From NCBI GenBank assembly GCA_015067835.1, contig SVLS01000001.1, positions 1-64,000 of the forward strand: DNA of 64,000 nt, in the 5' to 3' direction. This document shows, piece after piece, positions 5,847 to 63,166 of the stretch. Under the pieces are notes generated by a model. That model did not search any database and was not told the DNA's origin. It saw nothing but the letters and a program-made list of their open reading frames with translations. The DNA comes from Oscillospiraceae bacterium. GTDB lineage: Bacteria > Bacillota > Clostridia > Oscillospirales > Oscillospiraceae. Position 1 is the first letter of the stretch; each line of letters begins with the position of its first letter. The translations under genes were made by a program, and so were the position numbers.

Positions 5847-7345
5847 TTTCCGCGCCACTTTACATCGGTATCAAATTTGAAGGAGTAGAGGTCTGCATCC
5901 TTCATAGAGATTTCCATACGGATCTCCTTGCCGGACAGTTCAGCCAGGGACTTGGGGAATACGACTCTGCGTTCCACGCTGTCGCCAAAGACCTTGCCGG
6001 AATCGTAGCCCTCAAGGTAATTGCCCTCTGTGTCGGTCAGACGGAACTGCACATGGCCTGCACCGGAGGTGGCAAAATTGATATGCAGCGCATCACCCTC
6101 AAAGATAAAGGGCTTGGTTAGTACCTTTCCGCCGGCATAATCGCTGTGCCACGAGAAGAAGCCATCCAACCGGGATGTATAGCGGCAAACGCGGAGTTTT
6201 TCTCCCATATAGCCGCGGGAGGCATACATGGAGATCTCGTCCGGAGCGCCGGGAATGTCCGAGGCAGTCTGCGCCATGCCGTAGTAGAAATAGCAATCTC
6301 CGTAAACCCAGTTATCCAGGCTCTCAATGCCCGGGGTCAGGAAGGCTTCCTCCGTACGGCGGTAGCTTTCGCCATCGCGGGAGGTCATCACCAACCCGTC
6401 CGTAATGACTGTGCCGATGCGGTGGAGTCTGTTCCGGTACATCCAGGTTCTGTTCTCATAACCGGGCAAGCTGTCGTAGTTCTGCGGGTCGTCCTGATAG
6501 CGGTCCTGATATCGAACGGGGAAACCGATAAACATATGGTCGGCGCGGTAATACTTTTGAATGTCATTGATATAAAGATCCACATCATCCCGTTCCGGAT
6601 CAAATGTGATCATGCGGGGCTCATCCCAGTTTACAAAATCTTTGGATGTGCGGACACGGATATCGCGGGTTAGATTATCGTTATGCGCGGCATTTCCTGC
6701 GCCGGGAGCCCACTTTCCGTTCACGGTATCGGTCCCGTGAACGCCGCGGTAGAACAGGAAATACTGCCGTGTTTCTTTATCCCACAGCGCCACATTCATG
6801 GAGTCATAGGCGCCGTCATCCGCCAAAGTGCGGACTCTCTCAAACTGAACGCCATCCGCGCTTTTATAGTAATCCAGGCTCTGTTTCGCCGTTTCCACCA
6901 GCGCCTTATAGCGCTCATCCGCAGGACATTCAGGGTTGGTATCGCAGAAGATAAACCAGCTTCCCCGCTTTCGGGCATCCAACGGAAGCGGGATGATATT
7001 ATTATCAATACGACCGCCGTACCGCTCCAGATTCAGCGGCACACGGGTAAATGCTTTTCCATCCCTGCTTTCCGCAAGGCACCACACGGCAGTATTGCCG
7101 GGGTTGAAGCTTCCTTTGGAGACCGTGGGAAAGCTGAGTCCGCGGTAGTAAAGGCGGAAGATCCCGTTTTCATTGAGAACGCAGGCATAGCCGCCGCTGG
7201 CATTTCCTTCCCAAAGCTCGTTCAGCTCCAATGCCACGCCCTTATACTCCGGTCTGTGCATCTGCACACGGACACCCTCTGCGCTGTCCATCATGTATTC
7301 ATCCCAGCAGACCTCTCTGCGGGAACCGATTTGCAATGCATTCAT
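5843..7345 (-). CDS. Hypothetical protein, probable beta-propeller (GH32/GH43-like fold)
   Basis: 500 aa; repeated W/Y-F-R-G and D-x-D blades (FRLYYRGLSF, YFLFYRGVHG, RDDVDLYINDIQKYY); no signal peptide seen. Confidence 0.55.
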   Translation of the reverse strand: MNALQIGSRREVCWDEYMMDSAEGVRVQMHRPEYKGVALELNELWEGNASGGYACVLNENGIFRLYYRGLSFPTVSKGSFNPGNTAVWCLAESRDGKAFTRVPLNLERYGGRIDNNIIPLPLDARKRGSWFIFCDTNPECPADERYKALVETAKQSLDYYKSADGVQFERVRTLADDGAYDSMNVALWDKETRQYFLFYRGVHGTDTVNGKWAPGAGNAAHNDNLTRDIRVRTSKDFVNWDEPRMITFDPERDDVDLYINDIQKYYRADHMFIGFPVRYQDRYQDDPQNYDSLPGYENRTWMYRNRLHRIGTVITDGLVMTSRDGESYRRTEEAFLTPGIESLDNWVYGDCYFYYGMAQTASDIPGAPDEISMYASRGYMGEKLRVCRYTSRLDGFFSWHSDYAGGKVLTKPFIFEGDALHINFATSGAGHVQFRLTDTEGNYLEGYDSGKVFGDSVERRVVFPKSLAELSGKEIRMEISMKDADLYSFKFDTDVKWRGK

Positions 7346-54272: not shown

Positions 54273-56399
54273 TTACAGCAGAGGCTCCATTGCCAGAACC
54301 GGGTGATTCTTCTCCGTCAACCAGTTCAGCAGCTCCTCGCCATCGGTGGTAATGGTTTCATCCGCCACCAAATCCACGAAATTCTCAATGCCATACAGCT
54401 CAAAGGCAGTCTTGTTCAGTTTCTCTGCCACATCGTCCTTCAGCTCCTTAGGCATCCAAACAATTCTCTCAATGCCGCCTTCTGCAGCGATGAATTTTTT
54501 GGAGGAGATAAAGTGACGGCCGTGACCCATATAACCGGGTGTCTGTACACCGCCGCCGGTGCAGGAAGCCAATTCGCCAAAGGTCATACCTGCCGGAGTC
54601 ATACCCTTAAACTCCCGGTTGACTACGATGAAGCCGTTGCTCATAGGCTCAATGCCGCAAATACACTCAAAACAGCCGCAGGAGGTCATAGGATCTTCCA
54701 GAATGGAATACAGCGTGACATTTTCCACTGCGCCGTGGGTTGCCTCTGCAATCATCTTGTTGACCGACTCAAACCGACCGGTACGCTCATCCAGCAAGCC
54801 TTCCTTGAAAATCGGCTGGCAAGGGCCGTTGGGATTCAGCTCGTTGGTTGCCTTGGCATCCAGCCAGGAAACGGCACCGCACAGACCCAACCGCTCGGGG
54901 GTAACCACGCAGCAATGGGCAGGTGCAAAGGACTGGCACAGAATGCAGGTATAATAGCGGTCCACTGCCTCGTCGGTCATGGATGCCAAACGGTCATCTC
55001 TTTGATTATACCGCGGCATTGCCATTTCATCCCGGAACTTGGCTGCCTGGGCTGCATCGGTAATCAAAGTGATTTGGCACTTATCCACCACCGCTTCAAA
55101 CTCGTTCATAATCATTACATACAGAACTTCTGCAAAGTCCTTCAGCCGCAAGCCGGCTTCATAAGCATCATTGGACACGCGGACACGCACCTGATTCCGC
55201 TGACCGGTGTGCATCACACCCTCCATATAATTGAACCAGGCGTGGAATTTCCGCTCGATGACGGACTCGAAGTCCACCTGCATCTTCTTGCCGGCAACCT
55301 CCACATAAGTAGCCAGCGCCAATTCCTTTTCCTCGTCCAGATCCGGTCCGATCACGGTAATCTTGTGATCCTCAATCTCACTGAGCTGACGCATTACCAC
55401 CAGCTCTGCGGTGGGATTCTTTCCGGAGAAGAACTCGTTGTGCATATCCGCTTTACGGATGATTTCACCTTCAAATGCAGCAGCAAATGCCACAGGGATG
55501 GGCAGCTCTGTTGCCTTAATCTTGATGTTGCGCAATTCGAGAGACTTCTTAACGGTATCGTTATGGTCGCAGACAGACTCCAGCGCACCGGGAACCTGGT
55601 TCTCACCCAGATCGATGTCTACGATGACCGGGAAGCCAAGCGCAATGGCACCTGCACCGGCAGAGACCACCACAGCGTCAATGGCACCAAAGGTATTGAC
55701 AAATGCAGGAACACGGTTCTTGGTGTATTCCAGCAAGCCGGCCAAATCGCCGGGCTGAATGTTGCCGAAAATCAAGGCCGCACGAACGGCAACCGTTACA
55801 ACGTGAATGACAGAAGTGACATCGTGACCCAGAGGAATCACACGCAGCTCCAGACCCATCTTCACGCCGCCCTCGACGCATTGCTCAATGACATCGCCAA
55901 CCAGGAAGGTCATAATGCCCTTGGACTGGTAGTCCTTGACCACCTTCACCACAGCTTCAGGATCCTCTGCCTTGCCCAGCACCACGGCTACGCCGGGAAT
56001 ATCTCCGGTAACCAGCGGAACGCCCAGGGAACGGATGATGGGGTCGGGAACGAAACCGATGCCGGATTCATTTTCGTAGGGGTCGCCGCCTTCTGCATAC
56101 TTCAGGCCTTCCAGAATTTCTGCACCCACAGCAGTAGCCAGACCGGCATTCAGCGCCTGACCCAAATCCTCCTGATTGGTAATCAGACTCTTCAAAACAC
56201 CGACACAGGCAGTCAGGTCACCCAATGTCTTGACCTTTACGCCGGTTGCGGCATAAATGGTAGGGAAATAATAAGCAGTATCCGGGAAGGCAATCTCCTT
56301 GTCTGCACCATATTTGGCAATGGCATCGTTGACAGCACCCTCTGTCAAGCCGGCAACTGCATTGCTGCCACCATAGATCAAATCAGTTAATACGCTCAT
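54273..56399 (-). CDS. acsB: CO-methylating acetyl-CoA synthase (ACS) beta/alpha subunit
   Basis: YYTCILCQSFAPAHCCVVTPERLGLCGAVSWLDAKATNELNPNGPCQPI and SCGCFECICGIEPMSNGFIVVNREF, A-cluster Cys motifs. Confidence 0.96.
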   Translation of the reverse strand: MSVLTDLIYGGSNAVAGLTEGAVNDAIAKYGADKEIAFPDTAYYFPTIYAATGVKVKTLGDLTACVGVLKSLITNQEDLGQALNAGLATAVGAEILEGLKYAEGGDPYENESGIGFVPDPIIRSLGVPLVTGDIPGVAVVLGKAEDPEAVVKVVKDYQSKGIMTFLVGDVIEQCVEGGVKMGLELRVIPLGHDVTSVIHVVTVAVRAALIFGNIQPGDLAGLLEYTKNRVPAFVNTFGAIDAVVVSAGAGAIALGFPVIVDIDLGENQVPGALESVCDHNDTVKKSLELRNIKIKATELPIPVAFAAAFEGEIIRKADMHNEFFSGKNPTAELVVMRQLSEIEDHKITVIGPDLDEEKELALATYVEVAGKKMQVDFESVIERKFHAWFNYMEGVMHTGQRNQVRVRVSNDAYEAGLRLKDFAEVLYVMIMNEFEAVVDKCQITLITDAAQAAKFRDEMAMPRYNQRDDRLASMTDEAVDRYYTCILCQSFAPAHCCVVTPERLGLCGAVSWLDAKATNELNPNGPCQPIFKEGLLDERTGRFESVNKMIAEATHGAVENVTLYSILEDPMTSCGCFECICGIEPMSNGFIVVNREFKGMTPAGMTFGELASCTGGGVQTPGYMGHGRHFISSKKFIAAEGGIERIVWMPKELKDDVAEKLNKTAFELYGIENFVDLVADETITTDGEELLNWLTEKNHPVLAMEPLL

Positions 56400-56460: not shown

Positions 56461-57069
56461 TTAAAAGCTGTCACGAAGCCGGGCTAACAGGCAGCCCGCT
56501 AAGTAATAAACTGTTTCGTAACGAATAAACTGCAGGATGTTCACATCCCACAAAATGGATAAGGTTGGGGGAAACTCATCGTCCCCATCGTAAAATTTCA
56601 AAAGCACCGGCAAATCGGGCAAGGGATAAATAACCACAGACAAATCCCCGCCGGACACCCGCTTTCCCTGCAGGCTATGGCAAATTTCAAGAAACTTTGC
56701 CGGATTTTGGGAGATTTTCGGTGCAATGCTGTCTCCGCTGATGCCCAAAGTACCACCGGACACTAACACGCCCGGCAAGCTGTTGACAGAGCAAAATTGG
56801 TTTGCCGCTGTCGCATTCGCCTTGCGGTCACAGAGCCAATCGTAAACCGTCAGACTCTGAGAAAAGTTCGCTGGATGACCGTCCAGAAGAATATGTCCCG
56901 TCTCTCGGTTTACATAACATTCTTGCCCCAGGAAGGAAAAGGTCATCCCCTGCTCCCTCGCCGTTATATTCGGATGACGGCAAAGCTTTTCAAAATCATA
57001 CTCCAGGAAGTGCTGCCGCGCCGCTTCCTGCATTTTTTCATAGTTGTTCATAGTACGTCTAAAGAGCAA
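56461..57069 (-). CDS. DUF3786-like protein
   Basis: FLGQECYVNRETGHIL...LPLPDLPVLLKFYDGDDEFPPTLSILWD-type sequence; position next to acsB fits DUF3786. Confidence 0.75.
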   Translation of the reverse strand: MLFRRTMNNYEKMQEAARQHFLEYDFEKLCRHPNITAREQGMTFSFLGQECYVNRETGHILLDGHPANFSQSLTVYDWLCDRKANATAANQFCSVNSLPGVLVSGGTLGISGDSIAPKISQNPAKFLEICHSLQGKRVSGGDLSVVIYPLPDLPVLLKFYDGDDEFPPTLSILWDVNILQFIRYETVYYLAGCLLARLRDSF

Positions 57070-57123: not shown

Positions 57124-59388
57124 TTACAGATCCAGATAGCTGTCGGAATACAGCACGTGGTTCTTGAAGATGTCACAGGACTTAATGGTCTCCATCAGTC
57201 TGCGGTCGTTGGGGTTGACGATAGCGGAGGTCAGACCCTGCATCATACACATTGCAACCAGAGCGGAGTCCATAATAGGACGGACTTCCTTGGGTGCGCC
57301 GTTGGAGTTGTTGGACAGACCGCCGGTGGACTTCAGGCCTTCAGCAGCGAACAGGCGGATGGCTTCCAGAACCTCCATCTGCTTGTCCTGCATACCCTTC
57401 ACAACCAGGAACAGGGGGTCGAACCACAAATCATCAGAGGTCATACCCAGGCTCATACCACGCTCCAGCATATTGTGGCAGTGCTTCATACGCTCTTCGT
57501 TGTCCTTTGCGATACCGTCAGCAGAGCACAGAGCGATACAGATTGCATCGTTGGCAGCAGCCAGGTCGATATAGCCGATACGGGAGCCAGCGTCAGCGGA
57601 GTTGACGATGGGCTTGCCGTTGGTGCGGTTGTAGACCTTGATACCGGCCTCGATTGCCTTCATATTGGCAGTATCCAGAGCCAGAGGAACATTGTTGAAG
57701 TTCTCCTGCAGCAGCTTAACAGCCCACATCATACGCTCGGGACCGTCCTTCTCAGCAGGTCCGATGTTGACATCCAGGTAGGTAGCACCGGCAGCAATCT
57801 GCTCAGCGGCACGCTTCAGGATAGGCTCGGGATCACGCTCGTCCATTGCCTTGCGGATCGCAGGAGCGATACAGTGAATACGCTCGCCGATGGTGACGAA
57901 GGTCTGTGCTTCGGGATTGTGACCTTTATACTGCACGCCCATATCCACCACTTCAATCTTGGGAACCTTGGTAGCCAGCAGCTCGTCGAAGGACAGCTCC
58001 TTGACTTCCACAGTAGTAGCAGCCTTGGCAGCGTTCTCAGCGGCGGCAGCCTTGGCAGCAGCCTCGTACTCCTTGTCCTTCATATACTTGGGCAGCTGAA
58101 CAGCCTCCAGAGGACCAACGACCACATTCCAGCCGGGCAGCTTCTCCTGAATTTCGCCCTTCATAACAGCAACCTTACCGGGGATAATCAGGGTGCGGTT
58201 CTTGATCTTGTTCTCGATATCCAGCTCCTCAAAAGTCTTCTTGATGGTGGAGGAAGAGAGCTTACCGGCAGCCCAGGCAGTCAGAACAGACATACCGGAA
58301 GCGTCGGTAATAATCAGGTTAATGGGCTGGTTGGAACGCTCCAATTCACCGGAAACCAGGAAGTAGGTCAGTGCAAAGTCAACCGTCAGACAGCAGGGGC
58401 TGTTCTCGTCTGCACCGTTCAGGGGATAAATCTTTGCTTCCACCTTCATGGGCTTCTGAGGATCGGTGAAGATGTTCTGACGCAGACCGTACAGAGGCAG
58501 AGCCTGTGCGTAGGTCATATTCTCCATCACGATGATGGAAGCATACTTTTCAGTGAACATTGCAGCATAAGCAGTCTGCAATCTAGCGTCGCCCTTTGCC
58601 AGTCTTGCAACATTGACGATGGAGGGATAACCGAAGCTGCGGTCGCCATCCTTAATGGCAGTACGGCGAACCAGAACGGCATTGGCCAGGGTTTCCTTGG
58701 CAGTCTTGCCGGTAACATCCAGAACCAGGTTCTTGTTGCCCTTGGCTTCCAGATTCTTTACGGTGTCGTACAGGTCGGAGATGTTTTCTGCCCAAACACC
58801 CAGAGTCACACCCTTTTCGGTGGCCAGTGCGTTCATTGCTTCCCAGTTTGCAGGGGTAGCGCCATCCAGAATGACATCCTTGCCGCAAACTTCCAGAGCA
58901 GCCTTTGCGCACTCTACATCCCAGCATTCCAGAACCAGGCTGCGGCCGGTAGCGGCTGCCTTCTTAACCAGCTCTGCATAAACAGCGGGATCGTTCTGCT
59001 TATTGGCAACGAAGACGAACTCCACATACATCCGCTCGCCGATACGCTCGTAATCCACCTTCTGCAGGTCAGCCAGCTTCTTGTCAGCATCCTCGCACTC
59101 AGTGCAGACACAAACAGCATACAGGTTCTTATTAACCAGAGTCTTTTCGTGACGGAACAGAACGGTTTCGCCGCCCAGCTTGTGTTCGCCAACGGAGATG
59201 GTCTTCATGGGAGGCGCAGTCTGCTCATTAAGCATTGCCTTTGCTTCCTCAGAGAAATAGGGGCACTTATCAATTTCCACAGCACCCTGTGCAACCTTCA
59301 TACAGAAAGCCATACAGGTGGGGCTGCCACACTCCTTACAGTTCTTCTTAGGAGAAATCTTAAAAATGTCAAGACCTTTCAAAGCCAT
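57124..59388 (-). CDS. acsC: Fusion of CFeSP large subunit (AcsC) and methyltetrahydrofolate:corrinoid methyltransferase (AcsE)
   Basis: N-terminus SPKKNCKECGSPTCMAFCMKVAQG...KCPY 4Fe-4S motif; Ala-rich linker YEAAAKAAAAENAAKAATTVEV; C-terminus FVTIGERIHCIAP...ATYLDVNIGP...PLALDTAN...NSADAGSRIG...STGGLSNNSNG. Confidence 0.93.
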   Translation of the reverse strand: MALKGLDIFKISPKKNCKECGSPTCMAFCMKVAQGAVEIDKCPYFSEEAKAMLNEQTAPPMKTISVGEHKLGGETVLFRHEKTLVNKNLYAVCVCTECEDADKKLADLQKVDYERIGERMYVEFVFVANKQNDPAVYAELVKKAAATGRSLVLECWDVECAKAALEVCGKDVILDGATPANWEAMNALATEKGVTLGVWAENISDLYDTVKNLEAKGNKNLVLDVTGKTAKETLANAVLVRRTAIKDGDRSFGYPSIVNVARLAKGDARLQTAYAAMFTEKYASIIVMENMTYAQALPLYGLRQNIFTDPQKPMKVEAKIYPLNGADENSPCCLTVDFALTYFLVSGELERSNQPINLIITDASGMSVLTAWAAGKLSSSTIKKTFEELDIENKIKNRTLIIPGKVAVMKGEIQEKLPGWNVVVGPLEAVQLPKYMKDKEYEAAAKAAAAENAAKAATTVEVKELSFDELLATKVPKIEVVDMGVQYKGHNPEAQTFVTIGERIHCIAPAIRKAMDERDPEPILKRAAEQIAAGATYLDVNIGPAEKDGPERMMWAVKLLQENFNNVPLALDTANMKAIEAGIKVYNRTNGKPIVNSADAGSRIGYIDLAAANDAICIALCSADGIAKDNEERMKHCHNMLERGMSLGMTSDDLWFDPLFLVVKGMQDKQMEVLEAIRLFAAEGLKSTGGLSNNSNGAPKEVRPIMDSALVAMCMMQGLTSAIVNPNDRRLMETIKSCDIFKNHVLYSDSYLDL

Positions 59389-59408: not shown

Positions 59409-60353
59409 TTAGACGAGTTCCGTAATGAACTTCTTAATGGCTGCAATCGCTGCAGGATGACGCATAATGACAGCGTCAGCACCGCCGGTCAGGTTTGCGG
59501 CAGCAGTTGCCACTTCCATATCAATGGCGCGCTCTTCCTGGCAACCCCAAGCGGGTTCATCCTCTGCGGAAGCGGTGGATTCCTTCACGCTCCAGGTATC
59601 GGTGGATACCGGTGCAATAATGGGCATCTGCAGGTCAGCATCGGACTGAGCCAGTGCAGCCAGGCGGACGCGGTCCAGAGTGGATGCCACATACTCAAAG
59701 CCATAGCCCACAGCAGCGGTACCGATGTTCATCACAATGCTGTCAGCAGGAACGTTGGCGTCCTTCTTCAGCATGATGTTCAGCTGCTTTGCCAGGTTGA
59801 TGTCGTCAGCGGTCTCAGCGCCGACCTTCTGACCGTAAGCCAGAACGACGGAAGCGCCAACGGTCTTGCAGTTTTCCTGCTTGGCAGACATACAAACGAT
59901 GTTCTTGCCGGGCAGAGCCTCGGAAATCTTAGCGAACAGTTCGCCGTCCTTTTCCAGGTTCTTGCAGCCCATAATGACCAGAGGCATGGAAACAGCTTCA
60001 GCAACAGCCTTGGCGTCTGCCACGCAGTCAGCAACGGAGCGGTTTGCGCCGTTGGGGTCAGCAGACTCGAAGTTCAGGCACAGGAAATCAGCGCCTTCCA
60101 TGGTTTCTGCCTTCTTGGCATAATCTGCCATAGTTGTGCATCCGGCATAGAATTCCTTCAGGCCGGCGGAAGTCCATTCAGCGGCAGCGTCAGAAATTTC
60201 AACGCCAATCTTGGGAGCATTTTCGATGGGAGCATCGAAGGTGTAGAACGGCAGCACATTCTGGCCGCCGATGACAACAGCCTTGTCACCGGTGCCCAAG
60301 GTCACGGCATTGATCTTGCCGCTGAAGGGCTGCGTCTTAGGTGCGAAAGACAT
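59409..60353 (-). CDS. acsD: Acetyl-CoA decarbonylase/synthase delta subunit (CFeSP small subunit)
   Basis: GAVTLG-type start, VIGGQNVLPFYTFDAPIENAPKIGVEISD, AADLTGGADAVIMRHP-like C-terminus. Confidence 0.94.
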   Translation of the reverse strand: MSFAPKTQPFSGKINAVTLGTGDKAVVIGGQNVLPFYTFDAPIENAPKIGVEISDAAAEWTSAGLKEFYAGCTTMADYAKKAETMEGADFLCLNFESADPNGANRSVADCVADAKAVAEAVSMPLVIMGCKNLEKDGELFAKISEALPGKNIVCMSAKQENCKTVGASVVLAYGQKVGAETADDINLAKQLNIMLKKDANVPADSIVMNIGTAAVGYGFEYVASTLDRVRLAALAQSDADLQMPIIAPVSTDTWSVKESTASAEDEPAWGCQEERAIDMEVATAAANLTGGADAVIMRHPAAIAAIKKFITELV

Positions 60354-60400: not shown

Positions 60401-61171
60401 TTACAGTCCGATGGACTGTGCGATGCCCTTAAGGGCAACCTTCATAGGGTCATTGTCCGGCAATTTGGAAGACGGTTCTCCGTCGCAGTCGCAGCGATAA
60501 ACGGATTCATCGTGGGGCAGAACGCCAAAGAGCTTCAGCCCGTATTTCTCGATTTCCGCTTTTACGCCATCGTCCAAAACGCCGCCCGGCGCCCGGTTGA
60601 CAATCAGACCCATCTGGCCGGGATTCAGATTCATTTGCTCCACCATTTCGGCAATTCTGGCCACAGCCTGAATGCCACGGCGGGAGCAGTCGGAAATTAA
60701 AAGCATCGTATCCACGTGGGGCAGCGTTCCCCGCGCAATGTGTTCCAATCCGGCTTCGTTGTCCATTACAATATAGCTGTAATTTTTTGCATACTTGTCC
60801 ACCTGGGTTTTGAGCACGCCGTTGACATAGCAGTAACAGCCCTTGCCCTGGGTGCGGCCCATTACCAGCATATCAAAATCGTCTTCCTCCACAATCGCAG
60901 AGTTGAATTTGAAGTCTGCATAGTCCGCCTTTGTCATACCGGCAGGAATGGTGCCCTTCATTTCAGCCTGGGCCATTTCTTCCCGGATCGCTCCCAAAGA
61001 GGTCTCCACTTCTACGCCCAAAACCTCATTGAGGTTGGCGTTGGCATCTGCATCCACAACCAGCACAGGACCGTTTTTCTTCTTGCACAGGTAGTCAATC
61101 AGCATACCGCAGGTGGTGGTTTTTCCCACGCCGCCCTTACCGGCAACGGCGATGGTATGAGGTGTTGCCAT
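60401..61171 (-). CDS. CooC/AcsF-like nickel insertion ATPase
   Basis: TIAVAGKGGVGKTTTCGMLIDYL, VLVVDADANANLNEVLGVE, YSYIVMDNEAGLEHIARGTL. Confidence 0.92.
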   Translation of the reverse strand: MATPHTIAVAGKGGVGKTTTCGMLIDYLCKKKNGPVLVVDADANANLNEVLGVEVETSLGAIREEMAQAEMKGTIPAGMTKADYADFKFNSAIVEEDDFDMLVMGRTQGKGCYCYVNGVLKTQVDKYAKNYSYIVMDNEAGLEHIARGTLPHVDTMLLISDCSRRGIQAVARIAEMVEQMNLNPGQMGLIVNRAPGGVLDDGVKAEIEKYGLKLFGVLPHDESVYRCDCDGEPSSKLPDNDPMKVALKGIAQSIGL

Positions 61172-61190
61172 AGATATTTGCTCCTTTATA

Positions 61191-61283
61191 TCATTGCGAA
61201 CCAGTGACCCGCGGTCACTGGTGTGACAATCTCCTTTTACGATGGGGATTCCCACGCCAGTGTGCGCACTGACTCGGAATGAC
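61191..61283. repeat. Palindromic MITE/REP-like element, copy B
   Basis: TCATTGCGA...GTGACAATCTCC...GGGATTCCCACG...CTCGGAATGAC matches copy A at 34585..34706. Confidence 0.7.
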
Positions 61284-61301
61284 AATCTTTAAAAGTTTTG
61301 T

Positions 61302-62231
61302 TTACACCAAATCCAGCAGACCGGCTTCCTTGGCAATGTAGGCCACATCGTCGAACTTATTCAGTGCGTACAGATGGATGCCGTTGATGCCGCAGGCACG
61401 GTACTCGTCAATTTGGTTAATGGTGTATTCGATACCGGCTTCCCGGAAAGCGGCCTTCTTGCCTGCCACATCTGCATCGAAGGGCTCTGCGCAGAAGGGA
61501 TCGGGGAAGATCCAGTTCTTGGAAATGATTTCACACAAAGCTCTGGGCATAACGCAACCGTTGCGGGACAGTGCCATATTGATGGTTGCCTTCATATCCA
61601 GAATAGGCATAATGCCCACATCTACGGGCATCCAAATGCCTGCTGCACGGATGGCATCCAGCCAGTAACGGAACTGGTCCATATCCCAGCACAGCTGTGT
61701 CATAATGTAGTCAGCGCCATTGTCCTGCTTCTGCTTCAGAAAGGCAATGTCTGCCTCCAGGCTGCGGCACTGAATATGGCCTTCGGGAGAACCGGCTACT
61801 GCAATGGTAAACTTGTCGCCGAATTCCTTACGGACAAACTTTACCAGCTCTGTTGCATAGTGCAGATCACCGCCGGTACCGGTCCATCCAAAGGGCAGGT
61901 CGCCCCGCAAGGCCAGCATGTGGTTGATGCCGTGATCCAAATAATTCTGTAGCTGCTCCCGGATGCCTTCCTTGGTGTTGCCGATGCAGGTAAAATGGGT
62001 AACACCGGTGGTCTTGCCGTCCTTTACAATTTTATCCAGAACCTCCAGATTCTTTCCAATGTTTGTGCCGCCGGCGCCGTATGTACAGGAAATGTAGTCA
62101 GGGTTCAAGGTGTACAGCTGTTCCAGCACACCGCCTTCACCGCACAGCTTTTCCATTCCCACATCCGTCTTGGGGGGAAATATCTCAAAAGAGAACGCAC
62201 TGCGCTCATCAAAGATATCCATTACGCTCAT
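61302..62231 (-). CDS. metF: Methylenetetrahydrofolate reductase
   Basis: FSFEIFPPKTDVGMEKL, DYISCTYGAGGTN, HFTCIGNTKEGIREQLQNYLDHGINHMLALRGD. Confidence 0.95.
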   Translation of the reverse strand: MSVMDIFDERSAFSFEIFPPKTDVGMEKLCGEGGVLEQLYTLNPDYISCTYGAGGTNIGKNLEVLDKIVKDGKTTGVTHFTCIGNTKEGIREQLQNYLDHGINHMLALRGDLPFGWTGTGGDLHYATELVKFVRKEFGDKFTIAVAGSPEGHIQCRSLEADIAFLKQKQDNGADYIMTQLCWDMDQFRYWLDAIRAAGIWMPVDVGIMPILDMKATINMALSRNGCVMPRALCEIISKNWIFPDPFCAEPFDADVAGKKAAFREAGIEYTINQIDEYRACGINGIHLYALNKFDDVAYIAKEAGLLDLV

Positions 62232-62278
62232 TTTGTCTTTTCCTCCTGATTGCAATTCTTTGCAAAATTAACATTACA

Positions 62279-62932: not shown

Positions 62933-63166
62933 ATGGCTGTAAAAATTGAAAAAGATACCATTATTGGTGACATTCTGGATATCGCACCCCAGGCTGCACC
63001 TTTGTTTTTTGCCATTGGCATGCACTGTCTGGGCTGTCCCTCTGCACGGGGCGAAACCGTAGAGGAAGCCTGTATGGTTCACGGAATCGAATGTGAGCCC
63101 TTCCTGGCGCAGCTCAATCATTTCCTGGAAGCCTACGAAGCAGACCAGGCTGAGAAGAATCAGTAA
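62933..63166 (+). CDS. DUF1858 domain-containing protein
   Basis: KDTIIGDILDIAPQAAPLFFAIGMHCLGCPSARGETVEEACMVHGIE. Confidence 0.92.
   Translation: MAVKIEKDTIIGDILDIAPQAAPLFFAIGMHCLGCPSARGETVEEACMVHGIECEPFLAQLNHFLEAYEADQAEKNQ

Follow-up and report, generated by a model that had tools for sequence, protein, structure and literature searches.

In the 64,000-nucleotide stretch of Oscillospiraceae DNA analysed here (the window), a single gene encodes both AcsC, the large subunit of CFeSP, and AcsE, its methyltransferase (MeTr). The two enzymes are normally separate in the acetate-making Wood-Ljungdahl pathway, and the fusion is carried by a large group of gut bacteria, most of which are uncultured. 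The fusion is conserved and real, and it is apparently undescribed: we found no description of it in the open-access literature searched. We consider it highly probable, on sequence evidence, that its product is a bifunctional chain in which the CFeSP large subunit carries its own methyltransferase, that the fused AcsE arose once, and that the fusion is the likely cause of the reported "absence" of acsE.

The gene is one uninterrupted ORF of 754 amino acids on the minus strand. A sequence-only reading of this DNA had proposed a natural AcsC-AcsE fusion at 57124-59388 and gave no strand; reading the interval on the plus strand yields a spurious frame. The features of the gene are as follows.

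57124..59388, minus strand: acsC-acsE fusion gene, a single 754-aa ORF that scores above both family cut-offs and recurs as the same ORF in many genomes
58075..59388, minus strand: AcsC part (CFeSP large subunit), residues 1-438, assigned with NF003195, phmmer and Foldseek
59263..59340, minus strand: N-terminal 4Fe-4S cluster cysteines C17, C20, C25 and C42, assigned from Pfam FeS and their invariance
58075..58452, minus strand: C-terminal corrinoid-binding region of AcsC, residues ~313-438, which aligns to the final stretch of CFeSP large subunits
57997..58074, minus strand: linker portion rich in Ala, Lys and Glu (residues 439-464), which differs in length and sequence among fusions
57898..57996, minus strand: conserved arm before the barrel, residues 465-497 (...VPKIEVVDMGVQYKGHNPEAQTF), with no counterpart in the stand-alone AcsE proteins inspected
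57127..57897, minus strand: AcsE (MeTr) part, residues 498-754, assigned with NF040758, aligned catalytic residues and Foldseek

Both halves belong to their families by the curated cut-offs of NCBIfam. The AcsC equivalog model NF003195 scores 501 bits over residues 1-439 (cut-off 306), and the AcsE model NF040758 scores 464 bits over residues 496-754 (cut-off 370). Pfam domains on the 754-aa protein are FeS at residues 13-44, CdhD at 70-434 and Pterin_bind at 518-725. The closest solved AcsC in both sequence and fold is that of the Clostridium autoethanogenum CFeSP in the CODH/ACS complex (PDB 9fzy), whose AcsC chain, in contrast to ours, has no fused methyltransferase; the AcsC half matches chain 9fzy_F in phmmer with an E-value of 5.5e-134 (451 bits) and in Foldseek with a TM-score of 0.90 on the target. 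For the AcsE part, Foldseek gives TM-scores of 0.84-0.85 on the targets 2yck and 2e7f, and the closest AcsE structures are those of Moorella MeTr (1f6y and 2e7f), to which the fusion's AcsE is ~37% identical over the aligned part.

The residues expected at both active sites are also in place. C17, C20, C25 and C42, which we take from established family knowledge to be the 4Fe-4S cluster ligands, are invariant among 30 aligned fusions. In the AcsE part, D572, N596, D657 and N693 align with D75, N96, D160 and N199 of the Moorella enzyme, its pterin-site residues according to established family knowledge, and all four are conserved. The 4Fe-4S motif with AcsC domains and the complete pterin-binding methyltransferase domain that had been recognized from the sequence alone are thus borne out, and the data support an AcsC-AcsE fusion whose two active sites appear intact in sequence. 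Other corrinoid protein families fit poorly. The HgcA/HgcAB models of mercury methylation have cut-offs of 285 and 275 bits; the protein scores 50 and 37, and the weak HgcA-model matches fall on the C-terminal corrinoid-binding stretch of the AcsC half. The metH model scores 87 bits against a cut-off of 1011, and the Pfam domains for homocysteine binding, B12 binding and activation are lacking from the protein.

The fusion lies in an operon on the minus strand with the gene order metF-like, CooC-like ATPase, acsD, acsCE, DUF3786, acsB. Its other members are listed below.

61302..62255, minus strand: metF-like methylene-THF reductase, putative methyl-THF supplier (Pfam MTHFR, E 7.5e-63)
60401..61285, minus strand: CooC/AcsF-like P-loop ATPase, probably for nickel insertion (Pfam AAA_31/CbiA; same place in relatives)
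59409..60353, minus strand: acsD, CFeSP small subunit and AcsC partner (NF040759, 459 bits, cut-off 430)
56461..57069, minus strand: DUF3786 protein between the fusion and acsB (Pfam PF12654, E 1.2e-35)
54273..56399, minus strand: acsB, acetyl-CoA synthase, the methyl acceptor (NF040764, 1003 bits, cut-off 800)

The motifs C..CQ...GLCG and CGCFE of the A-cluster are present in AcsB of the window. The rest of this genome, a MAG of 1.73 Mb that is 90.6% complete, encodes a CODH, RACo and Fhs, so that with the acs operon the core of the Wood-Ljungdahl pathway is present. A search of this 90.6%-complete genome for a stand-alone acsE, a check suggested by the sequence-only reading, found none, nor was a second acsC found, which leaves the fused AcsE as the sole methyltransferase candidate found there. 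The AcsE-domain search also returned no MetH-like match in this genome; many relatives have one. A second AcsB is encoded on another contig of the genome (L217:6594-8747, minus strand, contig C10). This 717-aa protein is 55% identical to AcsB of the window, its gene adjoins cooC and lies near the CODH gene, and the A-cluster motifs are kept in both copies. Two AcsB types occur across the family Oscillospiraceae as well. Upstream of the operon, positions 62933-63163 on the plus strand encode a small protein with a hybrid-cluster-protein-associated redox disulfide domain (TIGR03980).

The fusion marks a clade of ~13 Oscillospiraceae genera: other genomes share it, but it is not a general feature of Clostridia. 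Within the genus, 21 of 36 other genomes contain a full-length fusion at 80-91% identity, and most of the remainder contain pieces of it cut by contig ends. A scan of named genomes found the fused state at 72 of 80 loci, among them loci of Candidatus Faecousia, Avoscillospira, Limimonas and Pseudoflavonifractor sp. MSJ-30; NCBI taxonomy places Faecousia and MSJ-30 within Oscillospiraceae. Seven of the eight other loci are truncated at a contig end, and the eighth, L090, has a single TAG in the linker. In a family sample of 401 genomes, 38 have a full-length fusion; by table count, ~13 genera are fused and ~23 keep acsC and acsE apart, and no genus shows both states. The occurrence of the domain pair across Clostridia had been raised as a check on the proposal. 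It holds for these Oscillospiraceae genera and not more widely, since no fusion was found in samples of the class Clostridia (390 genomes) or of the phylum (399 genomes), where acsC and acsE at the inspected loci are adjacent but separate. Large "open frame" values in the class and phylum samples resembled fusions, but every such locus that was inspected proved to consist of adjacent genes with stops between them. The loci of the relatives G117 and G143 were likewise rejected as fusions, with one or two stops between the genes.

In L090 (CAMGCA010000009.1), the in-frame TAG is at positions 6830-6832, and the fusion is otherwise intact. Several unusual substitutions lie near the TAG, which could reflect an assembly error, decay or a natural re-split.

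Since almost every member is a MAG, the fused gene could be suspected of being an assembly artefact or a pseudogene mended by a frameshift. However, dozens of independent assemblies share it, including the RefSeq record NZ_JAHLPU010000040 of Pseudoflavonifractor sp. MSJ-30, whose title bears no MAG label, and low dN against dS points to purifying selection on both halves. Because the fusion recurs across assemblies, we regard the artefact reading as refuted, with a negligible chance of being correct.

An Ala/Glu-rich linker had been noticed at 57965..58080. We find the linker close by, at residues 439-497 (~57898-58074, minus strand), but it is more than a spacer: the final 33 residues show conservation across fusions and are predicted to adopt an ordered structure. 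In Moorella thermoacetica, CFeSP (AcsC/AcsD) and MeTr (AcsE) are separate chains (PDB 4djd, 1f6y and 2e7f). The domains, cluster cysteines, catalytic residues and operon logic are the same here, whereas AcsC and AcsE form one chain, joined by a linker of 43-66 residues (83 distinct fusions) that includes the extra conserved arm. The middle of the linker is variable and of low complexity. In the arm, a Tyr is conserved in 82, a Phe in 83 and a Val in 79 of the 83 distinct fusions, and the linker end Y-K-G-H-[ND]-P is common to both fused groups. A structural model of residues 465-754 (pTM 0.84) predicts that the arm, at a mean pLDDT of ~80-91, is ordered and packs on the barrel. The whole-chain model has low confidence (pTM 0.43) and served for fold assignment only.

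The same alignments bear on whether the gene might yield two chains, either by translation from an internal start or by proteolytic cleavage of the linker, which would confine the fusion to the gene level. A Met in the arm (VVDM) occurs in 55 of the 83 distinct fusions and could act as such a start, and the stop in the L090 linker, if natural, would also fit. On the other hand, the arm Met is not conserved, and 24 of the 83 have no Met within 40 residues before the barrel. The ancestral start Met of AcsE, present in 39 of 43 separate genes, is replaced in every distinct fusion, by Ser in 74 and by Ala in 9. This makes a conserved internal start unlikely, and we judge the production of two chains from this gene to be very improbable.

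The fused AcsE module would have a single origin within Oscillospiraceae from neighbouring acsC and acsE genes. Most unfused relatives carry these genes side by side in the order metF-cooC-acsD-acsC-acsE-acsB. The separate genes of other Oscillospiraceae and Clostridia (for example, in G277, G143, G117 and G854) are orthologous and in the same order; they differ in having a stop and a short gap between them, with the AcsE Met directly before the barrel. In G117 and G143, both genes are in one frame, parted only by the stops and a few codons. In the AcsE tree, all fused sequences form one clade (support 100/99.9), to which the unfused G854, with separate acsC and acsE at L181:3790-5980, is sister. 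The AcsC tree joins G854 (L181) to two fused genera, and AcsC rejects a single fused clade (p-AU 0.039). AcsD behaves like AcsC, with G854 AcsD sister to two fused genera. AcsC and AcsE taken together do not reject a single fused clade (p-AU 0.354). Recombination, a re-split or a second fusion are each possible from the AcsC tree alone. The most likely history is that a module of AcsE plus arm arose once and was later joined to different AcsC halves, or that G854 re-split; a scenario of two separate fusion events whose arms converged is less likely.

Such a history could be a neutral one, in which two neighbouring, co-translated genes lost the stop between them and their products behave as separate proteins that gain nothing from the tether. 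The adjacency of the genes in relatives, their shared frame in G117 and G143, the variable low-complexity middle of the linker and the possible reversion of G854 to separate genes are all consistent with this. Against it, ~13 genera have kept the fused state, none of the genera sampled is mixed, and the fusion has gained an arm, absent from separate AcsE, that is conserved and predicted to be ordered. We hold a neutral fusion to be a serious contender, at somewhat less than an even chance.

The proposed bifunctional chain would probably work as follows. In model acetogens, in which the proteins are separate, AcsE takes the methyl group of methyl-THF and passes it to Co(I), after which the AcsC corrinoid domain delivers it to AcsB. 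The AcsC half of the fusion is expected from homology to bind a corrinoid and to cycle between Co(I) and CH3-Co(III), and RACo is present; all functions of the fusion are assigned by homology. Together with AcsD, the fusion would form CFeSP. The C-terminal AcsE barrel would bind methyl-THF and methylate the Co(I) corrinoid of the AcsC half, and the mobile corrinoid domain would then deliver the methyl group to AcsB. One paper describes the C-terminal domain of CFeSP as a mobile element that serves both ACS and the methyltransferase (PMC12289521). The AcsE barrel would hang from the C-terminal end of this domain by a flexible stretch of ~25 residues followed by the 33-residue arm. Tethered in this way, methyltransferase and acceptor would be present in a 1:1 ratio and locally concentrated, while the corrinoid would stay free for AcsB and the activator RACo. 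Because AcsE would be tethered to the mobile domain, methyl transfer could occur in cis at a fixed 1:1 stoichiometry, which we infer to be a reasonable expectation.

The arrangement resembles MetH in principle, with a folate-binding methyltransferase barrel and a corrinoid domain on one chain and flexible linkers between domains. However, MetH has homocysteine and activation domains, another B12 domain, another domain order and no CFeSP parts. MeTr is a homodimer of free chains, but the AcsE chain in the fusion is not free. A more speculative proposal, which we think rather unlikely as a whole, is that AcsCE is self-methylating: the arm would dock or gate the methyltransferase and park it during visits to AcsB and RACo, transfer would take place in cis, the Wood-Ljungdahl pathway of gut acetogens would have evolved a MetH-like design of its own, and recombination would have spread the module of AcsE plus arm between lineages. 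The fusion offers a natural construct for studying the geometry and stoichiometry of methyl transfer between CFeSP and MeTr, with one linker to cut or shorten.

Recent surveys give the fusion a wider meaning. A 2024 survey of human gut CODH genomes with eggNOG-mapper KO assignments (PMC11338639) reported that it failed to detect acsE (K15023) in 78% of the CODH/ACS genomes of Oscillospirales (7/9 genera). Faecousia is among the main Oscillospirales genera of that survey, and a text search of the paper found no mention of a fusion. A method that gives each protein a single label would score AcsCE as acsC alone, and the fusion very likely explains most of the missing acsE in gut Oscillospirales. 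A 2025 rumen study also counted acsE among the genes by which it defined acetogens (PMC12449052). The direction of the pathway in the carriers could be acetogenesis or its reverse, either being compatible with the sequence. Since the second function of the fusion would escape pipelines that assign each protein a single label, acetogenic potential in these abundant gut and rumen bacteria has probably been undercounted.
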